Source of the DNA: Bacteroidales bacterium
GTDB lineage: Bacteria; Bacteroidota; Bacteroidia; Bacteroidales; UBA932
Direction of reading: 5' to 3'
Length of the DNA: 52,286 nucleotides
Assembly: GCA_017464245.1 (NCBI GenBank)
Contig: JAFUDV010000024.1
Location: 1 to 52,286 of the forward strand
Below the pieces are notes generated by a model, which saw only the letters and a list, made by a program, of their open reading frames with translations, had not been told where the DNA came from and did no database searches. The translations under genes were made by a program, and so were the position numbers. Shown here in pieces: positions 37,190 to 48,759 of the stretch. How positions within the stretch are numbered: the first letter of the stretch is position 1; each line of letters begins with the position of its first letter.

Positions 37190-37229
37190 AAGAGGCTGAC
37201 CGAAAAGGAGATTCTTAGGTCAGCCCCTT
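37190..37229 (-). terminator. Rho-independent terminator after the M6 protease operon
   Basis: A 12-bp stem (AAGAGGCTGACC with GGTCAGCCCCTT, one mismatch) around a 16-base loop. On the minus strand it is followed by a T-rich tract (37180-37190). It lies 15 bases after the stop of the last M6 gene and closes the eight-gene operon. Confidence 0.85.
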
Positions 37230-37244: not shown

Positions 37245-38999
37245 CTACTGTACGTCCAGTTCGAGCGTCACGTCCCGGCTGTGGCCGTCGGGATAGGCGA
37301 GACGCGCCTCGACGGTATGGCGTCCGGCCGTAAGGACGACCGAAGCGGCCTCCGCAGGCTCGTCGTCGAAGTACCACGCCACGGAAACCGGGCGGACCTC
37401 CTCTTCCTCCACCAGTGCGAACGTGAAACGGTCGCCGGCCCTGTAGGGTCCTTCGCTCGCGATCGTATCGAGCGTCAGTCCGTCATAGGAAGCCTGGACA
37501 TCCACTGTCACCGTCCCGCCGGCATAGGCGATCCGGGAGAAGGAGACCTCGCCCTCGACTCCGTTCCAACTGACCGGCACATAGGAATCGACATTGCCGG
37601 AGGGGAAAGGGATCCGGGATTCGCTATAGGTGTGGAGCGAGCTCTGGTTTCCGGCCGGAACGATGTAGAAACAGGGATGGGAGCCGTTCTCGTTGATGCT
37701 GTTCGACTCCTCCCAGCGGTACCACAGGTCATGGGCCGTCGCCGTATAATAGGCGGTCCGGACCGGACGCGAGGACTTGTCGGCATGGTACACGACCATG
37801 CCGGCGGCCGGGATGTACCGGTCCCAGCCGGTCTTCGTCCGGTTCTCATAGATGAAAAACTCGCCGTCCATGTCCGTGAAAGTGCGGTACGCCACGTTCC
37901 CGTTGATGGGAGGAATCGTATAGGTGCCGGCCCTGGGGAATTCCTTGTAGTCGTCTTCGGTGACCCAGCCCAGATACATCCGTTCCTCGAAATTGAAGTA
38001 CGGAGGCGTACGCATGTCGTTGTTGTAGGAGCCGGAGCACATGGTGGAATAGGAGTACAGGCCGCCGGCGTAGCCGTTGGTATAGTAATCCGTGTCGTAC
38101 ATGTCCGGGAGGCCCATCGCATGGCCGAACTCGTGGCAGGCGGTTCCGATGCCGCCCATCTTTCCGGCCAGCTCGCCCTGGCCCGCCAGCTCGTTGGAGC
38201 AGGCATACTTGTCCACGCGGACGCCGTCCAGTGTCACGCTCTTGCCGGCCGCCGACAGTTCCCATTGGTGCGGCCAGATGGAATCGTCGTCCGAGGAGTC
38301 CGCCTCGCCGTAGCCGGCATAGTACATGAAGACCATGTCCACTTTGCCGTCGCCGTCGTTGTCATACCGGGAGAAGTCGATCTGCCCGTCCAGCGCCTGG
38401 CAGCCTTCAACAACCGCCTCCTCCGGATTCTTGTCGTTGCCGCTGCCGTCGTTGCCGCCGTAATAGGAATACTTGCGGGACAGTTTCACAGGACCGTACA
38501 CGTCGAAGACGGGCTCGAAAAGGCCGCCCGAATTGTCATAGTAGAAATCCCGGGCCGACCCGGTCGCTCCGTTCCGGGAATACCCCGGTTCGTTCATCTG
38601 GCGGTCGTAGGCCGCCTGGGGATCGTCGGAGGACGTGAAGGAGAGGTCGGAGAACTCCACCAGGATCACGAGGAAGTGCTTCTTTCCGATAGCGACATGC
38701 TCCCCTGCCTTCGCGGCGGAAGCCCGGAAAGCCTGCGTCCTGCGGGCGCCCGCCCGTCGACGGACCTCCCCCAGGTCGATGTCGGGGACCTCACGGAAGA
38801 AGCCGTCCGCATCCTTGCGGACCGTCCGTCCAGTGGCATCCGTCGTCCAGTGCGCGAATTCGTCCCCGTGCCGCTGGAGGACGATCCGGGTGCCGTCAGG
38901 CTGGACATACACCAGTTTTCCGGGATGGGCGGGGACCGCCAGGAGGACCTGGAGACCCGTCAGAAGGATGGCTGCGGCCGATAAGATCTGCTTTTTCAT
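37245..38999 (-). CDS. M6-family secreted metalloprotease, cassette copy 3
   Basis: A protein of 584 residues with a signal peptide (ILSAAAILLTGLQVLLAVPA). The prodomain has the family pattern PGKxxxxQPDGT and HGDEFAHWTTDATGR (about 25-70). The catalytic domain has IGTACHEFGHAMGLPDMYD (HExxHxxGxxD zinc site, near residue 286) and the Met-turn-like STMCSG. The Ca-binding-like DNDGDGKVDM precedes it. The last 80 residues are an Ig/PKD-like domain (YRAGDRFTFALV, AWYFDDEP, GRHTVEARLAYPDGH). Immune-inhibitor-A-type proteases act outside the cell. It follows the fimbrillin-like lipoprotein by 9 bases. No peptide gene follows; a terminator does. Confidence 0.93.
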   Translation of the reverse strand: MKKQILSAAAILLTGLQVLLAVPAHPGKLVYVQPDGTRIVLQRHGDEFAHWTTDATGRTVRKDADGFFREVPDIDLGEVRRRAGARRTQAFRASAAKAGEHVAIGKKHFLVILVEFSDLSFTSSDDPQAAYDRQMNEPGYSRNGATGSARDFYYDNSGGLFEPVFDVYGPVKLSRKYSYYGGNDGSGNDKNPEEAVVEGCQALDGQIDFSRYDNDGDGKVDMVFMYYAGYGEADSSDDDSIWPHQWELSAAGKSVTLDGVRVDKYACSNELAGQGELAGKMGGIGTACHEFGHAMGLPDMYDTDYYTNGYAGGLYSYSTMCSGSYNNDMRTPPYFNFEERMYLGWVTEDDYKEFPRAGTYTIPPINGNVAYRTFTDMDGEFFIYENRTKTGWDRYIPAAGMVVYHADKSSRPVRTAYYTATAHDLWYRWEESNSINENGSHPCFYIVPAGNQSSLHTYSESRIPFPSGNVDSYVPVSWNGVEGEVSFSRIAYAGGTVTVDVQASYDGLTLDTIASEGPYRAGDRFTFALVEEEEVRPVSVAWYFDDEPAEAASVVLTAGRHTVEARLAYPDGHSRDVTLELDVQ

Positions 39000-39008
39000 G
39001 ATTCCCTC

Positions 39009-40673
39009 CTACTTCTTGATGATGAAACCCTGGCCCATGGCCGTGGCAAGCCACACTTTCGGTCCTTCTTCCTTGACGACCGTACACACATACTCTCCGC
39101 TCAGGAGGATGTTCTTTCCCTTGCGGAACGAGACGGAGACCCGGGCGGTGCCGCCCTTGGCCAGCGTCGGATCATAGCCGGAAACCACCAGCTGCTCCTT
39201 CGCATCCGCATTCAGGAGGGAGAACTCCTCCGTCCCGTCCGGCAGGACGGCGCGGGAGAGCTGGTCCCCGCCCCGCACATAAGTCCGGCGAAGGGTCGGG
39301 AGATAGCATCCGTAATCCTGCTCGTCCATGAGCGGGTTGTCGGCGACGGGGCCGTCCGTCGCGATGCCCCGCCGGTAGATGGCGATATCCTTCATGTTCG
39401 TGGCCGACAGCTTGAAGCAGGAGAAACGGCTGGCCGCCGAATTGTACTTGATGAAGGCGGACTCCCCTTCCTGGGCGAACACGGAGGCGATGCCGTCCGT
39501 GACCGTGACCGTCCAGCTGGAGAGGGCGTCCTTCCGGTCGGTCTCCTGCAGCACGTTCTTGGAAGCGGCCGCCGTCAGGTATCCGGTGCCGGTATGGAAG
39601 GCCCACGTGCCCGCGGTGGCGCCTGCCTCCACGGTCAGGACCGTCAGTCCGGCGTAATCGAGGATGCGCCCGTCCTCGACCGTCACCGCCACGCGGTCCC
39701 GGTGGGGGGTTCCATTGTCATTCTGTGCGCCCAGCCCATAGGTGCCTGCAGTATTGACAATCAGGATCTCGTCCCCTTCCTGGAGGGATCCGGTCTCCAG
39801 GATCGAGAACACGGGCGTGATGTCCTGGATTTCGACGCCGGCGAAGTCCACGGAGAAACGGGCCACCTTGCCGGATTCGAAGCGGCGTCCTTCGGGGAAG
39901 GTGATCTCCTTGCTCAGGACGCCCCGGTCGGTGTACACGTTCAGGGTCATCGGCGTTCCGGACACGTCCACCGGAGCGCAGGCAAACCAGAGGTCGGCGG
40001 AAGCGTCCGTGAGGAGCGTGATGGTGTGGGAGGCTCCGTTGGAAGCGAGCGAGCCGTCCTCGCCCCAGTACCATTCGCCCACGACGGGCGTGGCGAAGAC
40101 AAGGTCCGCCTTCCGGACCGCGGCACCGTCGAGTCCCAGGTTCTTCAGGGTCACGCGCCCGTAAGCCGTCAGGTGCGAGAAATGGATGTCCACCTCGTCC
40201 GGCAGGGTGGCTGAGGAAGCGGATTTCGCCACCAGGAGCTGGGCAGCCTCGTCCACGGAGGTAGCAGAGGGTCTCTGCTCCGCGGCGATGGAGACGCTCC
40301 AGGCCTTCCGGCTCGGGCTGATGGCCCGGGCGGAGGACGCCGGGGAAACCGCATAGAAGGTAAAGGGGGCCGAGGTGCCCGCCGCATCGAAGGAAGCCTC
40401 GAAGGTGGCCGACACGCCGTCGGCGGAGGCCGTCAGGGAGGACGGTGCGGCCTTCCCGTAGTTCAGGGAAAGGAGGATTTCACGGTCGTTGTCGGTCCAC
40501 AGCGTCCGGTACACGCCGGAACCGGCCTCGGAGAAGGCGGTACGGGTCCCTTCGCCGGCCATGGCGTGGAAATGCACGGTCTTCTCCCCGGTGGCGGGGA
40601 TTTCCTGCCCGGCATTCCGGCAGCCGGCAAGGACGGAAAGGGCGGCGAGCGCCGCAAGAGAGGTCTTCTTCAT
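39009..40673 (-). CDS. Fimbrillin-like lipoprotein, cassette copy 3
   Basis: A lipoprotein of 554 residues (signal LAALSVLAGC). The N-terminal 270 residues resemble the fimbrillin/Mfa-like family: GEGTRTAF, TLWTDNDREILLSL, LLVAKSASS and VDIHFSHLTAYGRVTLKNL. The C-terminal part holds a beta-rich module (EGDEILIVNTAGTYGLGAQ, TGTGYLTAAAS, SRFSCFKLSATNMKDIAIYRR) and a final domain that ends FIIKK. It has exactly the same length as the lipoprotein at 42665-44329 and is its clear paralogue. Fimbrillins are shaft or tip subunits of surface fimbriae; whether this one polymerises is unknown. It precedes the M6 gene by 9 bases and follows the peptide gene by 9. Confidence 0.85.
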   Translation of the reverse strand: MKKTSLAALAALSVLAGCRNAGQEIPATGEKTVHFHAMAGEGTRTAFSEAGSGVYRTLWTDNDREILLSLNYGKAAPSSLTASADGVSATFEASFDAAGTSAPFTFYAVSPASSARAISPSRKAWSVSIAAEQRPSATSVDEAAQLLVAKSASSATLPDEVDIHFSHLTAYGRVTLKNLGLDGAAVRKADLVFATPVVGEWYWGEDGSLASNGASHTITLLTDASADLWFACAPVDVSGTPMTLNVYTDRGVLSKEITFPEGRRFESGKVARFSVDFAGVEIQDITPVFSILETGSLQEGDEILIVNTAGTYGLGAQNDNGTPHRDRVAVTVEDGRILDYAGLTVLTVEAGATAGTWAFHTGTGYLTAAASKNVLQETDRKDALSSWTVTVTDGIASVFAQEGESAFIKYNSAASRFSCFKLSATNMKDIAIYRRGIATDGPVADNPLMDEQDYGCYLPTLRRTYVRGGDQLSRAVLPDGTEEFSLLNADAKEQLVVSGYDPTLAKGGTARVSVSFRKGKNILLSGEYVCTVVKEEGPKVWLATAMGQGFIIKK

Positions 40674-40682
40674 CGCCGGTTG

Positions 40683-40841
40683 TCAAAAATCGCCCCACGG
40701 ATCGTCCGTGCCCGGGTCGATGGTTCCGGTTCCTCCGGACTGGAGGAACGAAAGCTCCGGGCGGGTATCGACCACACGCACCACGGGAGCGTCATAGGGG
40801 AGTCTGTTCGTTTCAAGCTGCATAGGCATGGGAAATTTCAT
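40683..40841 (-). CDS. Mini-peptide gene, 52 residues (cassette 2)
   Basis: ATG at 40841, TGA at 40683-40685. The 52-residue product has no signal peptide. Its C-terminal two thirds, from VRVVDTRPELSFLQSGG to IDPGTDDPWGDF, is nearly the same as in the 43-residue product at 44337-44468, in protein and DNA. The start shares TGATG with the stop of the M6 gene before it, so translation is coupled to the protease. The pattern (Pro-x-Val-x-Val-Val and a Gly/Asp/Trp tail) resembles the very short, poorly known peptides common in Bacteroidales. It could be a substrate, ligand or export-guided peptide of the adjacent M6 protease; this is inference. Confidence 0.75.
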   Translation of the reverse strand: MKFPMPMQLETNRLPYDAPVVRVVDTRPELSFLQSGGTGTIDPGTDDPWGDF

Positions 40842-42658
40842 CAATCGGCAAGGATTTCCAGGAGGAGGACCGTCGTCCGCCCGTCGGCATAGGAGAGCCG
40901 GGCTTCGACCGTATGTCCGCCGGCGGTAAGGGACACGGAATCGGACCGGACGGGCTCGTCGTCGAAATACCAGGCGACGGAAGCCGGAATGTCCGTCTGC
41001 GCGTCCTCGGGATACACCAGCGAGAAGGCGAAGCGGTCCCCGGCCCGGTAGGACCCGGTATCGGCGATGGTCGGATACTCCAGCTCGTCCGAGGGAACGA
41101 TGGCTTTCAGGGTCACCTTGCCGTCGGCATAGGTGATGTCGCTGAAGGAGATGTCCCCCTCCACGCCGTTCCAGCTCTTCGGGACGTAGGACGTGACCTT
41201 CCCGGCCGGGAAAGGAATGCCGGGATAATTCTCTTCGTTGAAATAGTAGCCGTAACCGGGATAGTACTCATAGCCGTACATCAGGTTTTCCTGGTCTTCG
41301 GCCGGGACGACATAGCAGCAGGGGTGCGAGCCGTTCTCGTTGATGGCGTTGAGCGAGCCCCAGTCCGCCCACAGGCTGTAGGGAGTCGTCGTCGTCGCAT
41401 AGTAGCCTTCGAAGACGGTGATCTTCCGCTGGGACTTGTCCACATGGGTGACCAGCAGGCCGTGGGCCCCGAGTCCGGCATCCCAGCCGTTGGAGGCGCG
41501 GCATTCATAGACGAAGTACTCCCCGTCCATGTCCGTGAAGGTCCGGTAGGCGACGTTGTCATCGACGGTGGTCAGGGTGTAGGTGCCCGTCTTGTCGAAC
41601 GTGCGGAAGGCGTCCTCCTCCTTCAGCCAGCCCAGCAGGATCCGTTCCTCGATGGTGAAGTAGCACGGCCGGCGGCCCTCTTCGTTGTAGGCGCCGGAGT
41701 CCATCGTGGAGAAACCGAACATGGCCGCCGCCTGGCCCTTGTCGTCATAGTCGGTGTCGTAGAAATCCGGCAGGCCCATGGCATGGCCGAACTCGTGGCA
41801 GGCGGTTCCGATGCCGCACAGCTTGTCCGCATAGCGGCCGGTGCCTTCGATCTCGTTCGTACAGGCGTAGCTGTCAATCTTCTTCCCGTCCAGGGTCAGG
41901 GATTTCCCGGCCGAGGAGATCTCATACTGGTGGGGCCAGATGGTGTTGTCGTCGTCGTGGTCGGCCTCGCCGTAGCCGGCATAGTACATGAAGACCAGGT
42001 CCACGTCTCCGTCTCCGTCATTGTCATAGCGGGAGAAATCGATCTCGTCATCCAGGGCCTTGCACCCGTCAATGACGGCCTGTTCCGCGTTCTTGTCACT
42101 CCCCTGGTAGTCGTTCGCCCCATAATAGCTGTAGGGATGCTCCAGGGTCACGGGGCCGTACACGTCGAAGACGGGCTCGAACACCCCGTGGGAGTTGTCG
42201 TAGTAGAAATCCCGGGCGGATCCGACGCCGCCGTTCTCGCTGTACCCCTGCTGGTTGAGCAGCTGCGTGAACGTAGCCTGAGGGTCGTTGCCGGCCGTCG
42301 TAAACGCCTTGTCGCTGAACTGCACGAGAATGACCAGGAAATGCTTCTGTCCCAGGGCGACCGGTCCGGACGCCTGGGCACGGACCCGTGCCCGGGCCTG
42401 CGAGCGGCGGGCGGCGGCATGGCGGCGCAGCGTTTCGACATCGGTGTCCGTCACTTCGCGGAAGAAGCCGTCGGCATCCTGCCGGACCAGGCGGCCCCGG
42501 CCGTCCGTCGTCCAGTGGCCGAACTCGTCGCCATGGCGGAAAAGGGTGACCGTCGTCCCGTCAGGCTGGGTATGGAGAATCTTGCCGGGGCGGGCCGGGA
42601 TGGCCGTCATCTGAAGGCCGGCCAGGAGCGCTGCAAGCGCAAGGATAAGCTTTTTCAT
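40841..42658 (-). CDS. M6-family secreted metalloprotease, cassette copy 2
   Basis: A protein of 605 residues with a signal peptide (LILALAALLAGLQMTAIPA). The prodomain has HGDEFGHWTTDGRGRLVRQDADGFF-type sequence, nearly as in copy 3. The zinc site is HEFGHAMGLPDFYD (near residue 286), followed by FGFSTMDSG, and DNDGDGDVDLVFMYYAG precedes it. The C-terminus is the shared Ig/PKD-like domain (YRAGDRFAFSLV, AWYFDDEP, GGHTVEARLSYADG). It is about as long as copy 3 and much shorter than copy 1. It lies 6 bases after its lipoprotein gene; its stop overlaps the peptide start by one base. Confidence 0.93.
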   Translation of the reverse strand: MKKLILALAALLAGLQMTAIPARPGKILHTQPDGTTVTLFRHGDEFGHWTTDGRGRLVRQDADGFFREVTDTDVETLRRHAAARRSQARARVRAQASGPVALGQKHFLVILVQFSDKAFTTAGNDPQATFTQLLNQQGYSENGGVGSARDFYYDNSHGVFEPVFDVYGPVTLEHPYSYYGANDYQGSDKNAEQAVIDGCKALDDEIDFSRYDNDGDGDVDLVFMYYAGYGEADHDDDNTIWPHQYEISSAGKSLTLDGKKIDSYACTNEIEGTGRYADKLCGIGTACHEFGHAMGLPDFYDTDYDDKGQAAAMFGFSTMDSGAYNEEGRRPCYFTIEERILLGWLKEEDAFRTFDKTGTYTLTTVDDNVAYRTFTDMDGEYFVYECRASNGWDAGLGAHGLLVTHVDKSQRKITVFEGYYATTTTPYSLWADWGSLNAINENGSHPCCYVVPAEDQENLMYGYEYYPGYGYYFNEENYPGIPFPAGKVTSYVPKSWNGVEGDISFSDITYADGKVTLKAIVPSDELEYPTIADTGSYRAGDRFAFSLVYPEDAQTDIPASVAWYFDDEPVRSDSVSLTAGGHTVEARLSYADGRTTVLLLEILAD

Positions 42659-42664
42659 GGTCCG

Positions 42665-44329
42665 TTACTTCTTGATGATGAGACCTTTCCCGGAGCCGTC
42701 CCCGAGCCATACCTTCGATCCGTCCTCCCGGACGACCGTCAGGTCGAAGGAGGATTCCAGGATCCGGCGGCTGCCTTTCCGGTAACGGACATTCACCCGG
42801 ACGCCCTGCCCCTTGGCCAGGGACGGGTCATAGCCCGTCACGACGAGCTGCTTCCGCTCCGCCGCGTTCAGCAGGGTGAACTCAACCTTCCCGTCCGGCG
42901 TGTAGGTCCGGGAAATCTGGTCGGAGCCCTTGGCATAGGTCCATTCCGCACCCTTGAGGTAACAGCCGTATCCGCTCTCCGCCGCCAGCGGATCGTCAGC
43001 GACGGGGCCGGAAGGGCCGGAGGACTTGCGGTAGAGGACGACGTCCACCATGTTCTTCGAAGATGCCTTGTAGCAGGAGAAACGGGGGCTGGACGAATTG
43101 TACTTGATCAGGTTGGACGCGCCGGCTCCGGCCTGGAGGGTGGTGAGGGATCCGGAAATGCTCACCGTCCAGCTGGAATAGTCGTTCTTGGAGGAGACTT
43201 CCGTCAAGGCGTTGCCGGAGGATTTCGAAGCCAGGTATCCGTTGCCGGTGTTGAAAGCCCAGGTGCCGGACGAGGAACCGGCCTCCAGGGTCAGGACCGT
43301 CGCCTCGCCGGGATCGGCAATCACGCCGCCCGTGGCGTTCACGGAAACTTCCTTGCGATAGCTCGACTGCTGCGCGCCGAGGGCGTACGTCCCGTCCTTG
43401 CTGACTACGAGGACTTCATCTCCTGCCTGGAGCTCGGAAGCGTCGGTGACGAGGAAAAAGGTGTCCCCGCCCTGGATTTCAATGCCCGCCATGTCCACGG
43501 AGAAACGCGCCACCTTGCCGGAGTTGAACTTGCGGCCCTCGGGGAAGGTGATTTCCCGGGTCAGGTTGCCCTGGTCGGTGAACACGACCAGTTTCAGCGT
43601 CTGGCCGGACACGTCCACCGGCGCGCAGGCGAACCAGAGGTCGCCGGAAGCGTCGGTGTCCAGGGTGATGGTGTGCGAGTCGCCGTTGGCGGTCAGAGCG
43701 CCGTCCTCACCCCAGTACCATTCGCCCACGACCGGCGTGCTGAAGACCAGGTCCACCTTGCGGACGGTGGCGTCTCCGAGTTCCAGGTTCTTGAGCGCGA
43801 TGCGGCCGTAGGCCGTCAGGTGCGAGAAATGGAGGTCCACCTCGTCGGGAAGCGTCGCGGAAGCGGCGGATTTCGCGACCAGCAGCTGCGCGTCTTCGTC
43901 CACGGACAGGGCCGACGGACGCTGGCTGGCGGCGATGTACACGCTCCAGGCGCTGCGGCTCGGGCTGATGGCCCGGGCGGCGGACGCCGGGGAGACGGCG
44001 TAGAAAGTGTAGGGAGCCGACGTGGCGGAAGCGTCGAAGGACGCTTCGAACGAGGCCGTCGTCCCGTCCGCGGAGGGCGTGACGGCGGAAGCCTCGGCTT
44101 TCCCGTAGTTCAGGGAAAGCAGGATGTCGCTGTCGTTCTCGGTCCACAGGGTCTGATAGACCCCGTCCACGGCTTCGGCGAAAGCGGTGCGGGTGGGTGC
44201 CGTGCCGGCATGGAACCGGACCGTCTTCACGGAAGACGCCTCCGGGACTTCCTGCTCGACGTTGCGGCAGCCGGACAGCGCAGCCAGGGCCAGGAGGGCC
44301 GTGACGGAGATTTGGAAAAACTTCTTCAT
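42665..44329 (-). CDS. Fimbrillin-like lipoprotein, cassette copy 2
   Basis: A lipoprotein of 554 residues (signal ALLALAALSGC). It has the same organisation as copy 3: TRTAFAEA, TLWTENDSDILLSLNYGK, LLVAKSAASATLPDEVDLHFSHL and PVVGEWYWGEDGAL, then the module with AGDEVLVVSKDGTYALGAQ, TGNGYLASKSSGN and RFSCYKASSKNMVDVVLYRK, and the end GLIIKK. The middle module resembles carbohydrate- or ligand-binding beta folds but cannot be named. Spacing to the peptide gene upstream is 7 bases and to the M6 gene downstream 6. The strong similarity to copy 3 points to recent tandem duplication of the whole cassette. Confidence 0.85.
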   Translation of the reverse strand: MKKFFQISVTALLALAALSGCRNVEQEVPEASSVKTVRFHAGTAPTRTAFAEAVDGVYQTLWTENDSDILLSLNYGKAEASAVTPSADGTTASFEASFDASATSAPYTFYAVSPASAARAISPSRSAWSVYIAASQRPSALSVDEDAQLLVAKSAASATLPDEVDLHFSHLTAYGRIALKNLELGDATVRKVDLVFSTPVVGEWYWGEDGALTANGDSHTITLDTDASGDLWFACAPVDVSGQTLKLVVFTDQGNLTREITFPEGRKFNSGKVARFSVDMAGIEIQGGDTFFLVTDASELQAGDEVLVVSKDGTYALGAQQSSYRKEVSVNATGGVIADPGEATVLTLEAGSSSGTWAFNTGNGYLASKSSGNALTEVSSKNDYSSWTVSISGSLTTLQAGAGASNLIKYNSSSPRFSCYKASSKNMVDVVLYRKSSGPSGPVADDPLAAESGYGCYLKGAEWTYAKGSDQISRTYTPDGKVEFTLLNAAERKQLVVTGYDPSLAKGQGVRVNVRYRKGSRRILESSFDLTVVREDGSKVWLGDGSGKGLIIKK

Positions 44330-44336
44330 CGCTGTC

Positions 44337-44468
44337 CTAATAATCGCCCCACGGATCGTCCGTGCCCGGGTCGATGTTTCCGCCTCCGGACTGGAGGAAG
44401 GTCACCTCCAGGCGCGTATCGACCACACGCACGGCCGGAGTCTCATAATTCTTTTTGTCGTTTTTCAT
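44337..44468 (-). CDS. Mini-peptide gene, 43 residues (cassette 1)
   Basis: ATG at 44468, TAG at 44337-44339. The product starts MKNDKKNYETPA, then shares VRVVDTRxExxFLQSGG and IDPGTDDPWGDY with the peptide at 40683-40841; only the N-terminal dozen residues differ. An in-frame ATG two codons upstream (44474) would overlap the M6 stop as ATGA and give 45 residues; either start fits coupling. The DNA over the shared tail is almost identical between the two genes. No signal peptide is seen. It lies 7 bases before the next lipoprotein gene. Confidence 0.75.
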   Translation of the reverse strand: MKNDKKNYETPAVRVVDTRLEVTFLQSGGGNIDPGTDDPWGDY

Positions 44469-44470
44469 TA

Positions 44471-46990
44471 TCATTCAGCTTGAATGGTCAGGCGGATGAC
44501 CTCGACGGCCCCGTCCGGATAAGTCAGATGCGCTTCTACCAGATGCTTTCCCGCTGTCAGGGTGACGGAGCCGGACTGGACGGCCTGCCCGTCGAACGTC
44601 CACGAGAGAGAGGTGTACGGGTCGTCCGCATACTGCACCAGGGCGAGTTCGAAACGGTCGCCCGCGGCATAAGTCCCGTTCCCGGGGTTGGCGATGTGGT
44701 TGAAGCCCAGCTCGGGCTGCACGGGCTCGCCCACGGTGGCGGAAAGGACGGGCGTATAATACGTCCCGTCTTGGGACATATCATTCCAGGAGATGGGCCG
44801 CGTGCCGTTGTAGATTCCGTAATAGCCCATCTTGTCGGAGGTGCAGGCCTGGACAAGGAGCGGATCGGCCTCGGACGGGCCGACGACGCCATATCCGATA
44901 TACATCGACGAGCCGGAGGGAATCAGGAACTCCTGGGCGACGATGTTGACGGTATTCAGGGCGCCGAACACCACCCGGTCCGCCCGCTGGGTCAGTTTCC
45001 GGCGGCCGCCCACCTCCACGAAGACATAGACGTTCCCGACCGTGGACGACGCATTCCCCGCCAGCTGGAACGAAATGGATTTCAACTGCTTGCCCACATA
45101 GGGCGCCAATTCGTCGGCCGTCAGCAGGATACCTGCGGCGAGGTCGGAAGCTTCTCCGTCCCCGAACGGGAGCGTCGATGCGGAAGGGTCATATTTGCGG
45201 AAGGACGCTTCCTCGGGTTCATCGACCTTGCGCAGATAGAAATCCAGGGTGATCTCTTTCCGGCCCACGGACACGGACTCCTCCGCCGGCACGAAACCGT
45301 CGCAGGTAACCGAGACGGTGAAGGTCTTGTCCGCCAAATCGACGCCCGTGAAAGCGTAGGTTCCGTCCACGTCCGTCACGGCCGTGCGCTGGATCCCGCT
45401 GCCGGAAAGGGAGACCGTCGCGCCGCGCACGGGCTTGACCGACGTATTCAGCACCCGGCCGGCAACGCCCGGCGTCGTGGTGTAGGAGACCGTCATCGTC
45501 ACCGCTTCGTTGCTGAAGGTGATGTCCGTAAAGCGGTAATCGGAATCGACGCCTTCCCAGTCCACCGGAAGGTAGGTCTTTACCCGCTTGGTCCCCGGGA
45601 AGGGAATCTTCGGATACTGGGAACTGTCGAAACCATACACCGGATTGCCGCTGTCGTCATTATAGAAGAACCGGTAGCCAAACTGCAGGTTGCTCTGGTC
45701 CGCGGCAGGAACCAAGTAGAAGCAAGGATGGTCCAGATAGGCGTTGATCTTGTTGTACCACTCCCAATTGGCCCAATGGTTATAGGCCGTCTGGTTTCCC
45801 GCCCGATGGGCCGTGGACTTGTCCACGTGATACACCAGCAGGCCCCCGTTCGGAATATACCGGTCCCAGCCGGTCTTGGTGCGGCACTCGTACACAAAGT
45901 ATTCCCCGTTCACCGAGGTCGGCGTCTTGTAGGCGATCTCGTTCTGGACCGGGCCGATGGTGAGCGTCCCCTGCTGCGAGATTTCCGTCTGCCCTTCCAT
46001 CCATCCCAGCAGGATCCGCTCCTCGGAATTGAGATAGGGCGGCGTGCGGCCGTTGTTCAGATAGGCACCCTCGCACATGGTGGAGAAACTGTAAAGGCCT
46101 CCGGCATATCCGTTCTCCTCGTAGTCCGTGTCATAGAAATCAGGCAGGCCGAGCGAGTGGGCGAATTCGTGGGTGGTCGTTCCGATGCCGCACATCTGGT
46201 TTCCCGTCCCTTTCAGTTCGGAGGTGCAGAAATAGCGGTTCAAATACTTCCCGTCCAGCTGCGGATTGTTCCAGCCCGAGACGTACGACTGATGCGGCCA
46301 AATGGTGGTCTCGTCGCCCGTCTCGGCCTGGTTGTGGCCGGCATAGTACATCAAGGCCATGTCCACCCTGCCGTCTCCGTCCGAATCGTACTGGGAGAAA
46401 TCGACCTCGCTGTTCAGTCCCTTGCAGGCCTCCACCAGGGCGTTCGCGGCATTATTGACATAAGACGAACGATTATTGGACAGGACATACGGACCGAACA
46501 CGTCGAAGACGGGGGTATAACGCCCGCCGGAATTCTCGATATAGTAATCACGGACCGATCCCGTTCCGCCATTGGTGGAATAGCCCTCCTCGTTGAGCAA
46601 GGCGTCGAAGGCCGCCTGGGGATCCTGGATGATGAAATCGGTATCCTTGAAAGCGACCAGGATGACGGGAATCCGGTGGACGCCCTGGGTCAGGGAAGAG
46701 GCCCTGGCGGCGGCCTGCATCTGCCGGGCCGCGCGGCGCATCGACTGCGCCTCTTCGCGTTCCACGGCGGTAGGCTTGGTCGCCGGACGGAAGAACCCGT
46801 CTTCGCCCCGGGCGACAACGCGCCCGCGCTCGTCGGTCACATAATGGAGCCATTCGTCACCGTGGACCTGGATCGTGATGACGCTGCCGTCGGGCTGGGT
46901 CACCTTGATCTTGCCGGGATAGGCGGGGATGGCGGAGAGGATATGGAGGGCGCCCAGAAGGAGCGCGAAAGTGGCAAGGATTCTTTTCAT
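44471..46990 (-). CDS. M6-family secreted metalloprotease, cassette copy 1 (long form)
   Basis: A protein of 839 residues with a signal peptide (FALLLGALHILSAIPA). The prodomain pattern HGDEWLHYVTDERGR is followed by the M6 catalytic domain with IGTTTHEFAHSLGLPDFYD (zinc site near residue 270) and YSFSTMCEG. It carries an insert absent from the two shorter copies: a carboxypeptidase-regulatory-like beta sandwich (VAGRVLNTSVKPVRGATVSL, AVTDVDGTYAFTGVDL) and a jelly-roll-like module (AAGILLTADELAPYVGKQL to TYYTPVLSATVG). The C-terminal Ig/PKD-like domain is shared (YAAGDRFELALV, SWTFDGQ, GKHLVEAHLTYPDG). The ATG at 46990 is 2 bases after the stop of the interrupted lipoprotein gene. Confidence 0.93.
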   Translation of the reverse strand: MKRILATFALLLGALHILSAIPAYPGKIKVTQPDGSVITIQVHGDEWLHYVTDERGRVVARGEDGFFRPATKPTAVEREEAQSMRRAARQMQAAARASSLTQGVHRIPVILVAFKDTDFIIQDPQAAFDALLNEEGYSTNGGTGSVRDYYIENSGGRYTPVFDVFGPYVLSNNRSSYVNNAANALVEACKGLNSEVDFSQYDSDGDGRVDMALMYYAGHNQAETGDETTIWPHQSYVSGWNNPQLDGKYLNRYFCTSELKGTGNQMCGIGTTTHEFAHSLGLPDFYDTDYEENGYAGGLYSFSTMCEGAYLNNGRTPPYLNSEERILLGWMEGQTEISQQGTLTIGPVQNEIAYKTPTSVNGEYFVYECRTKTGWDRYIPNGGLLVYHVDKSTAHRAGNQTAYNHWANWEWYNKINAYLDHPCFYLVPAADQSNLQFGYRFFYNDDSGNPVYGFDSSQYPKIPFPGTKRVKTYLPVDWEGVDSDYRFTDITFSNEAVTMTVSYTTTPGVAGRVLNTSVKPVRGATVSLSGSGIQRTAVTDVDGTYAFTGVDLADKTFTVSVTCDGFVPAEESVSVGRKEITLDFYLRKVDEPEEASFRKYDPSASTLPFGDGEASDLAAGILLTADELAPYVGKQLKSISFQLAGNASSTVGNVYVFVEVGGRRKLTQRADRVVFGALNTVNIVAQEFLIPSGSSMYIGYGVVGPSEADPLLVQACTSDKMGYYGIYNGTRPISWNDMSQDGTYYTPVLSATVGEPVQPELGFNHIANPGNGTYAAGDRFELALVQYADDPYTSLSWTFDGQAVQSGSVTLTAGKHLVEAHLTYPDGAVEVIRLTIQAE

Positions 46991-46992
46991 GG

Positions 46993-48705
46993 CTACTGGA
47001 TGCAAACGATGAAACCGGTTCCGGTCCCCGCCATGAGCCAGGCCTTGCCATCTTCGAGATGGACGACCTTCGCGGAGAAGGTGGAAGAATGGGTGACCGC
47101 CTGCTTGACATAGCGGGCAAGCCGGACGCTCAGGCGGTCGCCCTCGGCGACACCGACAGGGATGCCGGTCACCTGGAGGACCGTGTAGGTAGCCGGTTCG
47201 AAGATCCGGAAAGCGATGGTCTCCGCCCCGGTCCGGACGCTGATCTGGCCGGTCCCTTCCTGATAGAGCCAGTCGGCCCCTTCATAGGAATAGACACCGG
47301 GCACCGTATTCTCCAGGAAGGCGTCCACCGCGTCTTCGCTGTTCTGCAGTTCATACAGGAACGGGTAGATTCCGGAATCATCGGTCTTCCGGACCTGGAA
47401 GGCGGCGACATCCGGGTTGTACTTGATCTGGAACAGGCGGTTCGTGATGACGGCCCGTTTCCAGGAATCCATGGTAATGGTCCAATAGGAGCCGGTCTTG
47501 ATATCGGTATCGGCATAGAGGTCGCTGACGCTCACCGAGTTCCTGTTATATAGATACCGGCCGTCCGCCTGGCGGATCAGGGTGCCGTATTCGCTCTCGT
47601 AGAAGGTGAAGGCGTCCTGCCGGGAGGAGAGGGTGATGATTCCGTCCTACACCGTCACTTCCCGGGCGGTCAGGGGGGCGTTCTTGGTCCCTTCCGGAAT
47701 GGCGCTCGCCATGAGCCGGTGCACCTCGCCGTCCTCATCGGTATCCTCCGCCACGAAGATGTACGTCTTCCCGGGCGAGAAGGTATCGACCTTCTTGAAA
47801 TAGTAGGTTCCCTCCTCCGACGGGGCCGACGGATCCAGGGTCATGTTCAGCGTCTTGATCTTCCCGGCAGGGAAAGCGCTGTCCTTGGCGAGGGTCACGG
47901 TGCGCACCTGGTCGTTCACCTGAAGGGTGAGCGTCGCCCCGGCCTTGGCCACGAAAGGCTTGATTCCCAGGTAGAAAACAGCGTTCTCGCCCTTTTTCAG
48001 GAGGGCGCTCACATCCAGTTCCAACACGGCCTCGGCAGAAGCGGAGACCGCCTTGAACACCGGTTCGGCGCCGGTAGCGTCCACGGTGAAAGTGCCCACG
48101 ACAGGTTCGGATGCCGTGAAACGGACGCTGGAGACGAGGGCGTCGCCCTCGCCGGGATTGGTCACGTTGACGGCGACGACCGCCACCGCCGGGGAAACGG
48201 CAAGGCGGGGCGTCTCGTCCCGGCCCACGGAAAGGGCCCTGCCGATGAGCGGGAAGGCCTCGCCGGCCAGGTGGGACATGTCGTCCGCCGCGGCCTGGAC
48301 CTGGGCGGTGCCGGAGGGCGCCCCCACCGTCACGGGGACGGAAGCGGGCGATGCGGCGCCGGCGGCATGGGGATAGACAAGATACCAGTCGGAAGCGTCA
48401 CCGGACAGGGCGGTCACGGTTCCCCGGGCATGGCCGGTGTCGGGATCATCCACGGAAAAGGCGCCGTCGGAGACGTAGGCGGTGGTGCCGCTTGTCGCAT
48501 GGAACAGGCTGAAGGCATCGCCGGTGACCCAGAGCGTGGACAGGCCGTCATTGGCCGTACGGGTGTCCACCGGCGTCGCAAATATCTCGAAATTGCCCCC
48601 TGACGGGGCCTGGACCTCCACTTCCTGCACGGAAGCACACTGCGTGAGGGCCATCACCACGACGGCACCCGCAATAGATCGGCTGATTTTCATTCTTTCG
48701 CGCAT
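46993..48705 (-). pseudogene. Fimbrillin-like lipoprotein, cassette copy 1, interrupted by one in-frame amber codon
   Basis: From the ATG at 48705 (or 48693) one frame runs 571 codons to 46993, broken only by a TAG at 47647-47649 (codon 353). The first part is a lipoprotein (signal ending ALTQC) with fimbrillin-like features: VDTRTANDGLSTLWVTGDAFSLF, and LDVSALLKKGENAVFYLG. After the TAG the same frame continues DGIITLSSRQDAFTFYESEYG through SGIYPFLYELQ to AGTGTGFIVCIQ, the same kind of C-terminus as copies 2 and 3. At the break copy 3 reads VTVEDGRI and this gene VTV-stop-DGII, so GAG to TAG explains it. TAG is an ordinary stop in other genes here, so the 352-residue truncated protein is the likely product. 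Confidence 0.8.
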
Positions 48706-48711
48706 ATCGGA

Positions 48712-48742
48712 CAAATATACGCAAAAAACAGGGGATATCAAA
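48712..48742 (-). promoter_or_regulatory. Promoter of the lipoprotein/M6 cassette operon
   Basis: On the minus strand, TTTG (48739-48742), 19 bases, then TATATTTG (48712-48719), perfect. The ATG at 48705 is 6 bases downstream, so the mRNA is probably leaderless. This would be the only strong promoter for the eight genes down to 37245. Confidence 0.8.
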
Positions 48743-48759
48743 AAAGGAGCCCCCGAGGG

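Follow-up and report, generated by a model that had tools for sequence, protein, structure and literature searches.

Gene neighbourhoods suggest a protease partner at one end of Bacteroidales lipoproteins and a mini-peptide companion at the other

We analysed an array of lipoprotein, M6 metalloprotease and mini-peptide genes that lies on a 52,286-nucleotide (nt) stretch of Bacteroidales DNA (assembly GCA_017464245.1, contig JAFUDV010000024.1); this whole stretch is called the window throughout. Its genome is a 97-contig assembly and is 84.7% complete. The array is read from the minus strand in the order lipoprotein 1 (interrupted), M6a, peptide 1, lipoprotein 2, M6b, peptide 2, lipoprotein 3 and M6c. 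Upstream of it stand rpoA, rplQ and an S41-type protease gene, and downstream a porin-like gene (labels assigned by eye). The features, with lengths in amino acids (aa), were as follows.

48712..48745, minus strand: promoter-like site before the array (TTGATA-16-TATATT at 48741-48714, 10 of 12 positions)
47647..48705, minus strand: lipoprotein 1, N-terminal part, closing at an in-frame TAG; the more likely start is the ATG at 48693
46993..47646, minus strand: lipoprotein 1, portion downstream of the TAG, carrying the predicted C-terminal partner domain at 46996-47340
44471..46990, minus strand: M6a metalloprotease, 839 aa, with a CarboxypepD_reg insert and a C-terminal domain; HEFAHSLGLPD at 274
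44337..44474, minus strand: peptide 1, 45 aa (43 aa if translation starts at the second ATG)
42665..44329, minus strand: lipoprotein 2, 554 aa, with a fimbrillin-like N-domain and the predicted C-terminal partner domain (42668-43012)
40841..42658, minus strand: M6b metalloprotease, 605 aa, TIGR03296 173.6 bits
40683..40844, minus strand: peptide 2, with two candidate starts, TTG (53 aa) and ATG (52 aa)
39009..40673, minus strand: lipoprotein 3, 554 aa, with a fimbrillin-like N-domain and the predicted C-terminal partner domain (39012-39356)
37245..38999, minus strand: M6c metalloprotease, 584 aa, with the shared protease C-terminal domain as its final ~85 residues
37190..37229, minus strand: terminator-like inverted repeat with a T-rich tail (GGCTGACC...GGTCAGCC), seen by eye

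The initial annotation had placed three lipoprotein-M6 pairs on one strand between one promoter and one terminator. Three M6 genes were found, each behind a lipoprotein gene, although lipoprotein 1 consists of two open reading frames (ORFs). The promoter at the front of the array held up as a 10/12 match, though sites of that grade numbered four in the region against 2.0 (standard deviation 1.6) in shuffles; the same site can also be read as the Bacteroidetes -7 box, whose consensus we take to be TAnnTTTG. As for the terminator, the repeat and its T-rich tail were visible at 37190-37229, but the repeat was not among the sites listed by a terminator scan of the region. Within the array, the gap between lipoprotein gene and protease gene was 6 nt for lipoprotein 2 and M6b and 9 nt for lipoprotein 3 and M6c. 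Both peptide genes overlap the stop codons of the preceding M6 genes, as had been claimed, and the stops of peptides 1 and 2 were 7 and 9 nt from the ATG of the next lipoprotein. The stretches VRVVDTRxExxFLQSGG and IDPGTDDPWGD were likewise found to be common to both peptides. No peptide gene stands in front of lipoprotein 1.

M6a, M6b and M6c scored 168.6, 173.6 and 181.7 bits with TIGR03296 (cut-off 110.8), and the HExxHxxGLPD zinc motif is kept in all three; being above the family cut-off and carrying the HExxH motif, they are predicted M6 peptidases. M6a is set apart by an inserted carboxypeptidase-regulatory-like domain (Pfam). The M6 sequence identities to M6c were 61 and 50%, and PDB 4yu5/4yu6 were the only solved M6 relatives at E ≤0.001 in a sequence search. 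With the Pfam family Mfa_like_1 (cut-off 27), lipoprotein 2 reached 29.1 bits, lipoprotein 3 26.9 bits and the N-terminal part of lipoprotein 1 19.0 bits. Lipoboxes were read by eye as LSGC in lipoprotein 2 and LAGC in lipoprotein 3, and as the non-canonical LTQC in lipoprotein 1, whose N-domain match spans 48160-48708. The lipoprotein 1 gene is divided into two ORFs by an in-frame TAG at 47647-47649. A sense-codon reading of this TAG was considered and is disfavoured; TAG also closes M6c, lipoprotein 3 and peptide 1, so we take the one at 47647 as a true stop. Since uninterrupted homologues of 568-593 aa occupy the same place in five relatives (loci L088, L089, L093, L094 and L097), the window copy would be either a broken gene or an assembly error.

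The upstream neighbours of M6 genes were counted in 78 named loci of M6 relatives, most of which come from ruminant-stomach assemblies (as we presume from their RUG prefix). These loci hold 91 M6 ORFs, in 75 of the 78, and five ORFs at edges were left out. A lipoprotein was found by rule directly upstream of M6 in 69/86 cases, compared with 40/445 other ORFs of the same loci, which upholds the earlier proposal that lipoprotein and secreted protease form a conserved unit; of 16 failures of the rule, 13 look like lipoproteins by eye. The commonest gap between the two genes was 6 nt (30/69). The M6-coupled lipoproteins differ in their N-terminal half, which is fimbrillin-like, coiled-coil (by eye) or hardly present, and have their last ~110 residues in common, ending in G.GFIIKK or a variant. 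This common part is called the C-domain. No Pfam or NCBIfam family matched it above cut-off, and no solved structure was found at E <0.1 with either the C-domain profile or the full lipoprotein.

When the C-domain was searched for in 61 genomes, 34 matches were obtained (E ≤1e-4), and all 34 stood beside a protease: 25 had an M6 and eight a C10 gene within 1.2 kb on the same strand, and the M6 neighbour of the 34th is truncated by the contig start, as read by eye. All eight C10 neighbours (L239-L244, L246, L247) were confirmed by Pfam as streptopain-like, with an I69 prodomain. A set of 247 order-level genomes gave three further matches, of which two stand by an HExxH M6-like protein and the third by a protein with the protease C-terminal domain at its end (all by eye). 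The presence of this last domain went together with that of the lipoprotein: among 65 M6 matches, a C-domain neighbour was found for 22/24 proteases with the protease C-terminal domain and for 3/41 without it (Fisher p 4.5e-12). The same domain was detected in 5/8 of the C10 neighbours, which are catalytically unrelated to M6.

From this gene order and these domain associations we infer that the M6 protease is exported and that its partner lipoprotein is anchored in the membrane, presumably at the cell surface. The lipoprotein would be a two-ended adaptor, in which an exchangeable membrane-side half (fimbrillin-like in the window, coiled-coil by eye or of other types in other loci) acts as anchor or stalk and is followed by a protease-side half. 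The C-domain would be a dedicated protease partner, most likely touching the protease's own C-terminal domain; such a C-terminal to C-terminal contact is favoured because the C-domain goes with two catalytic types that mostly share this domain. The contact may hold the protease at the cell surface and/or keep it in check there. We favour holding at the surface, with restraint of protease activity as a close second.

In a stronger form of the latter idea, which we consider a real contender if a little short of an even chance, the C-domain is mainly a protease inhibitor without any holding role, as BtiA/BtiB/BtiZ and Bfi are for C10 proteases. According to PMC3462683, a distance of 4-14 bp separates C10 genes from those of their inhibitors, which are small (116-138 aa), are predicted to be beta-sheet proteins and include some lipoproteins. 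The C-domain lipoproteins found beside C10 genes, and those of 133-176 aa beside M6 genes in L248 and L250-L253, agree with inhibition, whereas the association follows a non-catalytic domain of the protease, as the neighbour counts for M6 given above indicate, which argues against it. A single inhibitor fold for zinc and cysteine protease active sites would also be unusual. As to size, C-domain lipoproteins range from 148 to 794 aa; small lipoproteins of 133-176 aa with little beyond the C-domain were seen beside M6 genes not only in the loci just named but also in L256 and L257, the neighbour in L256 being a protein whose end is formed by the protease C-terminal domain. Some small C-domain lipoproteins stand behind the protease gene instead of before it.

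Relatives of the two window peptides were collected in two sets. Set A comprises 49 of 68 rows of a seed search (17 weaker rows and both peptides of the window were set aside) and is not independent of alignment A2, for which 38 peptides were hand-picked from set A and the window. Set B comprises all 54 rows of the family-level search from genomes other than the window's own, and was unused for the profile. The stretch inspected around each peptide was ~6 kb on each side for set A and 3 kb for set B, less at contig ends. In set B, a lipoprotein starts -25 to +80 nt from the peptide stop in 46/54 cases, compared with 19/693 control ORFs of 35-60 codons from the same loci; in set A, a lipoprotein was found directly behind the peptide in 42/49. 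The lipoprotein rule used here is a home-made pattern, whose stricter first version gave 34/54 versus 12/703, and the loosened rule was rerun on test and control alike. Among the eight exceptions of set B, four have a lipoprotein ~120-150 nt further on (both of genome G063, G205:C3 and G205:C22, the last counted by a wider rule) and one is at a contig edge. The gap from peptide stop to lipoprotein ATG fell within -25 to +30 nt in 81/93. TAnnTTTG was present no more than 70 nt upstream of the peptide in 33/103, versus 26/693 control ORFs.

The N-domain was detected in 49/50 peptide-led lipoproteins of set B versus 25/108 of the remaining lipoproteins at the peptide loci (p 6e-21). Among 78 C-domain lipoproteins, a peptide precedes 12/26 of those with the N-domain and 0/52 of those without (p 2e-7). 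In the window's own genome, each of the nine peptide matches (E ≤0.01) has an N-domain match no more than 80 nt from its end, and a detectable peptide stands at 9/32 N-domain matches (E ≤0.001, several of them short). The C-terminal parts of the peptide-led lipoproteins vary, as seen in 67 of 80 that were scanned with Pfam (the longest and some near-duplicates were left out): nuclease, LRR, M64, CotH, BACON, C-domain and others were found. One peptide-led lipoprotein, at L007:5389-7893, has a DNA/RNA non-specific endonuclease domain (PF01223) at its end.

An M6 gene anywhere in the inspected stretch was found for 1/54 peptides of set B and 2/49 of set A, 3/103 together. The initial annotation had seen the peptide as a substrate, activator or regulatory ligand of the M6 protease, an idea that these counts, set beside the lipoprotein counts of 46/54 and 42/49, do not support; a role as companion of M6 in general is contradicted by them. 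No signal peptide was seen in the peptides (judged by eye), so they have no evident route to an exported protease. The related expectation, that the peptide is conserved next to M6 elsewhere, holds for the cassettes of the clade to which M6b and M6c belong, where a peptide is present in 9/9 other members, and fails for the family at large. We conclude that the peptide is a predicted companion of the fimbrillin-like N-terminal half of the lipoprotein, not of the protease.

The near identity of the peptide tail across orthologous cassettes could also be expected if the peptide were exported, as a ligand, substrate or activator of protease or lipoprotein or as a double-glycine-like secreted peptide, and a glutamate and hydrophobic residues ahead of two small residues resemble the double-glycine leader motif. 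We regard this as improbable, considering the missing signal peptide and the rarity of M6 near the peptides. The C39 peptidase (PF03412) was not found in 35/37 genus genomes, among them the window's own (G000, 84.7% complete), and was present in the other two; many of these genomes are incomplete, and several C39-negative ones hold many peptides. This result speaks against double-glycine export.

Four clear paralogues of peptides 1 and 2 were found in the window's own genome, and nine matches in all at E ≤0.01 with a wider profile. With the own genome included, the family was detected in 30/61 relatives' genomes at E ≤0.01 (up to 15 matches per genome), in 28/149 genomes of the family-level sample at E ≤1e-4 and in 5/247 of the order-level sample at E ≤0.001, which places its centre in one Bacteroidales family. 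Peptide-like ORFs numbered 17 in the 78 M6 loci at E ≤1, of which 11 passed E ≤0.001. The peptides follow the pattern Y.[AT]P.[VI][ER][VI]..[VL]..E..[IFL][CL].S and close with a tail that is acidic, its net charge averaging -4.1. At least one of the final three residues is aromatic in 76/102, where ~28% would be expected from other tail positions. One relative in the own genome (G000 contig C28 10628-10756, L230), whose profile match runs through a TAG, lies directly before an N-domain near the contig end.

Pooled over eleven peptide genes (two from the window and nine from relatives), pN/pS was 0.46, with 0.64 before SGG and 0.18 after it, in the tail. The peptide is a real gene under purifying selection, and in this the initial annotation is supported. 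That the peptides of the window would be chance or mere spacer ORFs is hardly credible with such values and with the spread of the family over 30/61 relatives and 28/149 family genomes, even though the peptides are short and no family matched them above cut-off in Pfam, NCBIfam or PHROGs. Their near identity had been ascribed to selection or recent gene conversion. The window pair alone shows little in this regard; the tail kept in 9/9 cassettes points to selection, and gene conversion may still have played a part.

Since its amino-acid sequence is selected, the peptide itself would matter. It may act as a leader cistron in the cytosol, translated immediately ahead of the lipoprotein and most likely tuning or assisting lipoprotein synthesis; this is the reading that we favour, with a cytosolic partner acting in trans not far behind. 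In the trans reading, which taken by itself we hold to be rather unlikely, the peptide would be a small chaperone or targeting factor of the fimbrillin-like lipoproteins. The peptide motif is kept across lipoproteins of very different C-terminal type, tails are common to paralogues whose lipoproteins are 21-50% identical over the first 230 residues (a G012 pair and some G017 pairs), and in L100 one peptide stands before two successive lipoprotein genes, all of which a trans factor would explain; the position directly before the gene in 81/93 exceeds what such a factor would need. Peptide tails nearly identical within a genome were seen on G017 contigs C102, C47, C45 and C68 and on G012 C74 (L052-L054, L070, L074), the lipoproteins behind them being 21-70% identical over the first 230 residues. 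These tails could be explained by a shared reader or by gene conversion. A matching of each peptide tail to its own lipoprotein was not borne out, as no correlation was found over all pairs (Spearman 0.01).

Taken together, it is rather probable on this sequence evidence that lipoprotein C-domain and M6 protease form a cognate surface pair and that the fimbrillin-like half has the peptide as its leader cistron. Several points weigh against this. On the protease side, M6-coupled lipoproteins were the source of the C-domain model, and part of its adjacency to M6 follows from that choice, which does not apply to the eight C10 cases; 3/8 C10 neighbours have no detectable C-terminal domain. The similarity of C-domains tracked the catalytic domain and the protease C-terminal domain alike, with partial correlations of 0.36 and 0.32 and a bootstrap interval of -0.27 to 0.12 for their difference (mirror-tree test); this co-evolution test for the contact site gave no difference between the two domains. 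On the peptide side, 14/26 lipoproteins with both N-domain and C-domain have no detected peptide. The label fimbrillin-like rests on a home-made N-domain profile, and Mfa_like_1 was reached (E ≤0.01) by 3/67 peptide-led lipoproteins; we use the label because the profile also recovers lipoprotein 2 orthologues at E ~1e-30. RNA structure at the lipoprotein start was no different after a peptide, and a start-codon hairpin opened by peptide translation was rejected on this result. The pairs pooled in the selection test are not independent of one another, and taken singly they range from 0.14 to 0.90; dN/dS was 0.65 for the two window peptides (dS 0.34), and the value for the first half of the peptide is the higher of the two given above. 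More tentatively still, and with some doubt on our side, the arrangement may be a plug and socket, in which a common protease C-terminal domain fits the lipoprotein C-domain and so hangs both M6 and C10 enzymes on the surface, and in which leader peptides of 40-55 aa control the production of lipoproteins whose first half is fimbrillin-like, irrespective of the second half.

With respect to the history of the array, nine loci (L088-L095 and L097) have at least one flank in common with the window, and in several of them one flank alone is visible. A single cassette was found in L090, L091 and L092, two in L088, L093, L094, L095 and L097, two and a partial further M6 at the locus edge in L089, and three in the window; the site between rpoA-rplQ-S41 and the porin-like gene appears as a constant site at which cassettes are gained and lost. 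In a quick tree, M6a fell in a clade separate from M6b and M6c, each of which was nearest to the M6 of other genomes and not to the other. In the nine other members of the M6b/M6c clade, the peptide stands before the lipoprotein with IDPG(T/I)DDPW near its end. These placements, with one to three cassettes per locus, argue for an old array that has gained and lost members. The triplicated operon of the initial annotation, if meant as a recent event, is ruled out by the M6 tree and the orthologous cassettes. In the lone cassettes of L090 and L092 the peptide gene leads, with a promoter-like TATATTTG just upstream of it, in a context nearly the same as the promoter-like context at 48712..48745.

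The findings amount to two general rules for a group of rumen and gut bacteria, namely which lipoprotein end goes with the protease and which with the mini-peptide; if true, surface proteases and their cognate holders or inhibitors could be found from gene order alone. Two domains without a family model and a peptide family outside the family libraries used were brought to light. Titles and abstracts of the open-licence literature, a weak test, gave no description of M6 genes paired with lipoproteins, of either domain, of the exchange of halves or of the peptides, and the peptide family appears undescribed as far as that literature and the Pfam, NCBIfam and PHROGs searches show.

Among known systems, the C10 proteases of Bacteroides are paired with small exported inhibitors, some of which are lipoproteins (PMC3462683). 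The bfp/bfi and btp/bti pairs resemble the window in that the gene of an exported protease lies a few nt from that of an exported, often lipid-anchored partner, in that the partner is beta-rich and in that several paralogous pairs occur; some C-domain lipoproteins even stand by C10 genes, as Bti and Bfi do. Compared by description, they differ in that the protease is here mostly M6 and the partner is the C-terminal end of lipoproteins (of the length range given above) with exchangeable N-terminal halves. Surface-tethered proteases of Bacteroides are mentioned in a review (PMC13271334). Secreted M6 enzymes were reported in 20/30 genomes of the S24-7 family, in an account whose excerpt mentions no partner (PMC4936053); unlike these, the M6 proteases of the window have their own C-terminal domain and a coupled lipoprotein. 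With M6 peptidases of the immune inhibitor A type (TIGR03296, PF05547; 4yu5) they have the catalytic domain with HExxH in common. The lipoproteins share lipobox and N-terminal domain with the Mfa_like_1 (PF13149) lipoproteins, lipoprotein 2 being above the Pfam cut-off, and depart from the norm of that family by their fusion to unrelated C-terminal domains and by the mini-peptide gene in front. Leader peptides and translationally coupled leader cistrons are a general class, in which a short ORF likewise lies directly before another gene; the mini-peptide differs from them by an amino-acid motif that is conserved family-wide.

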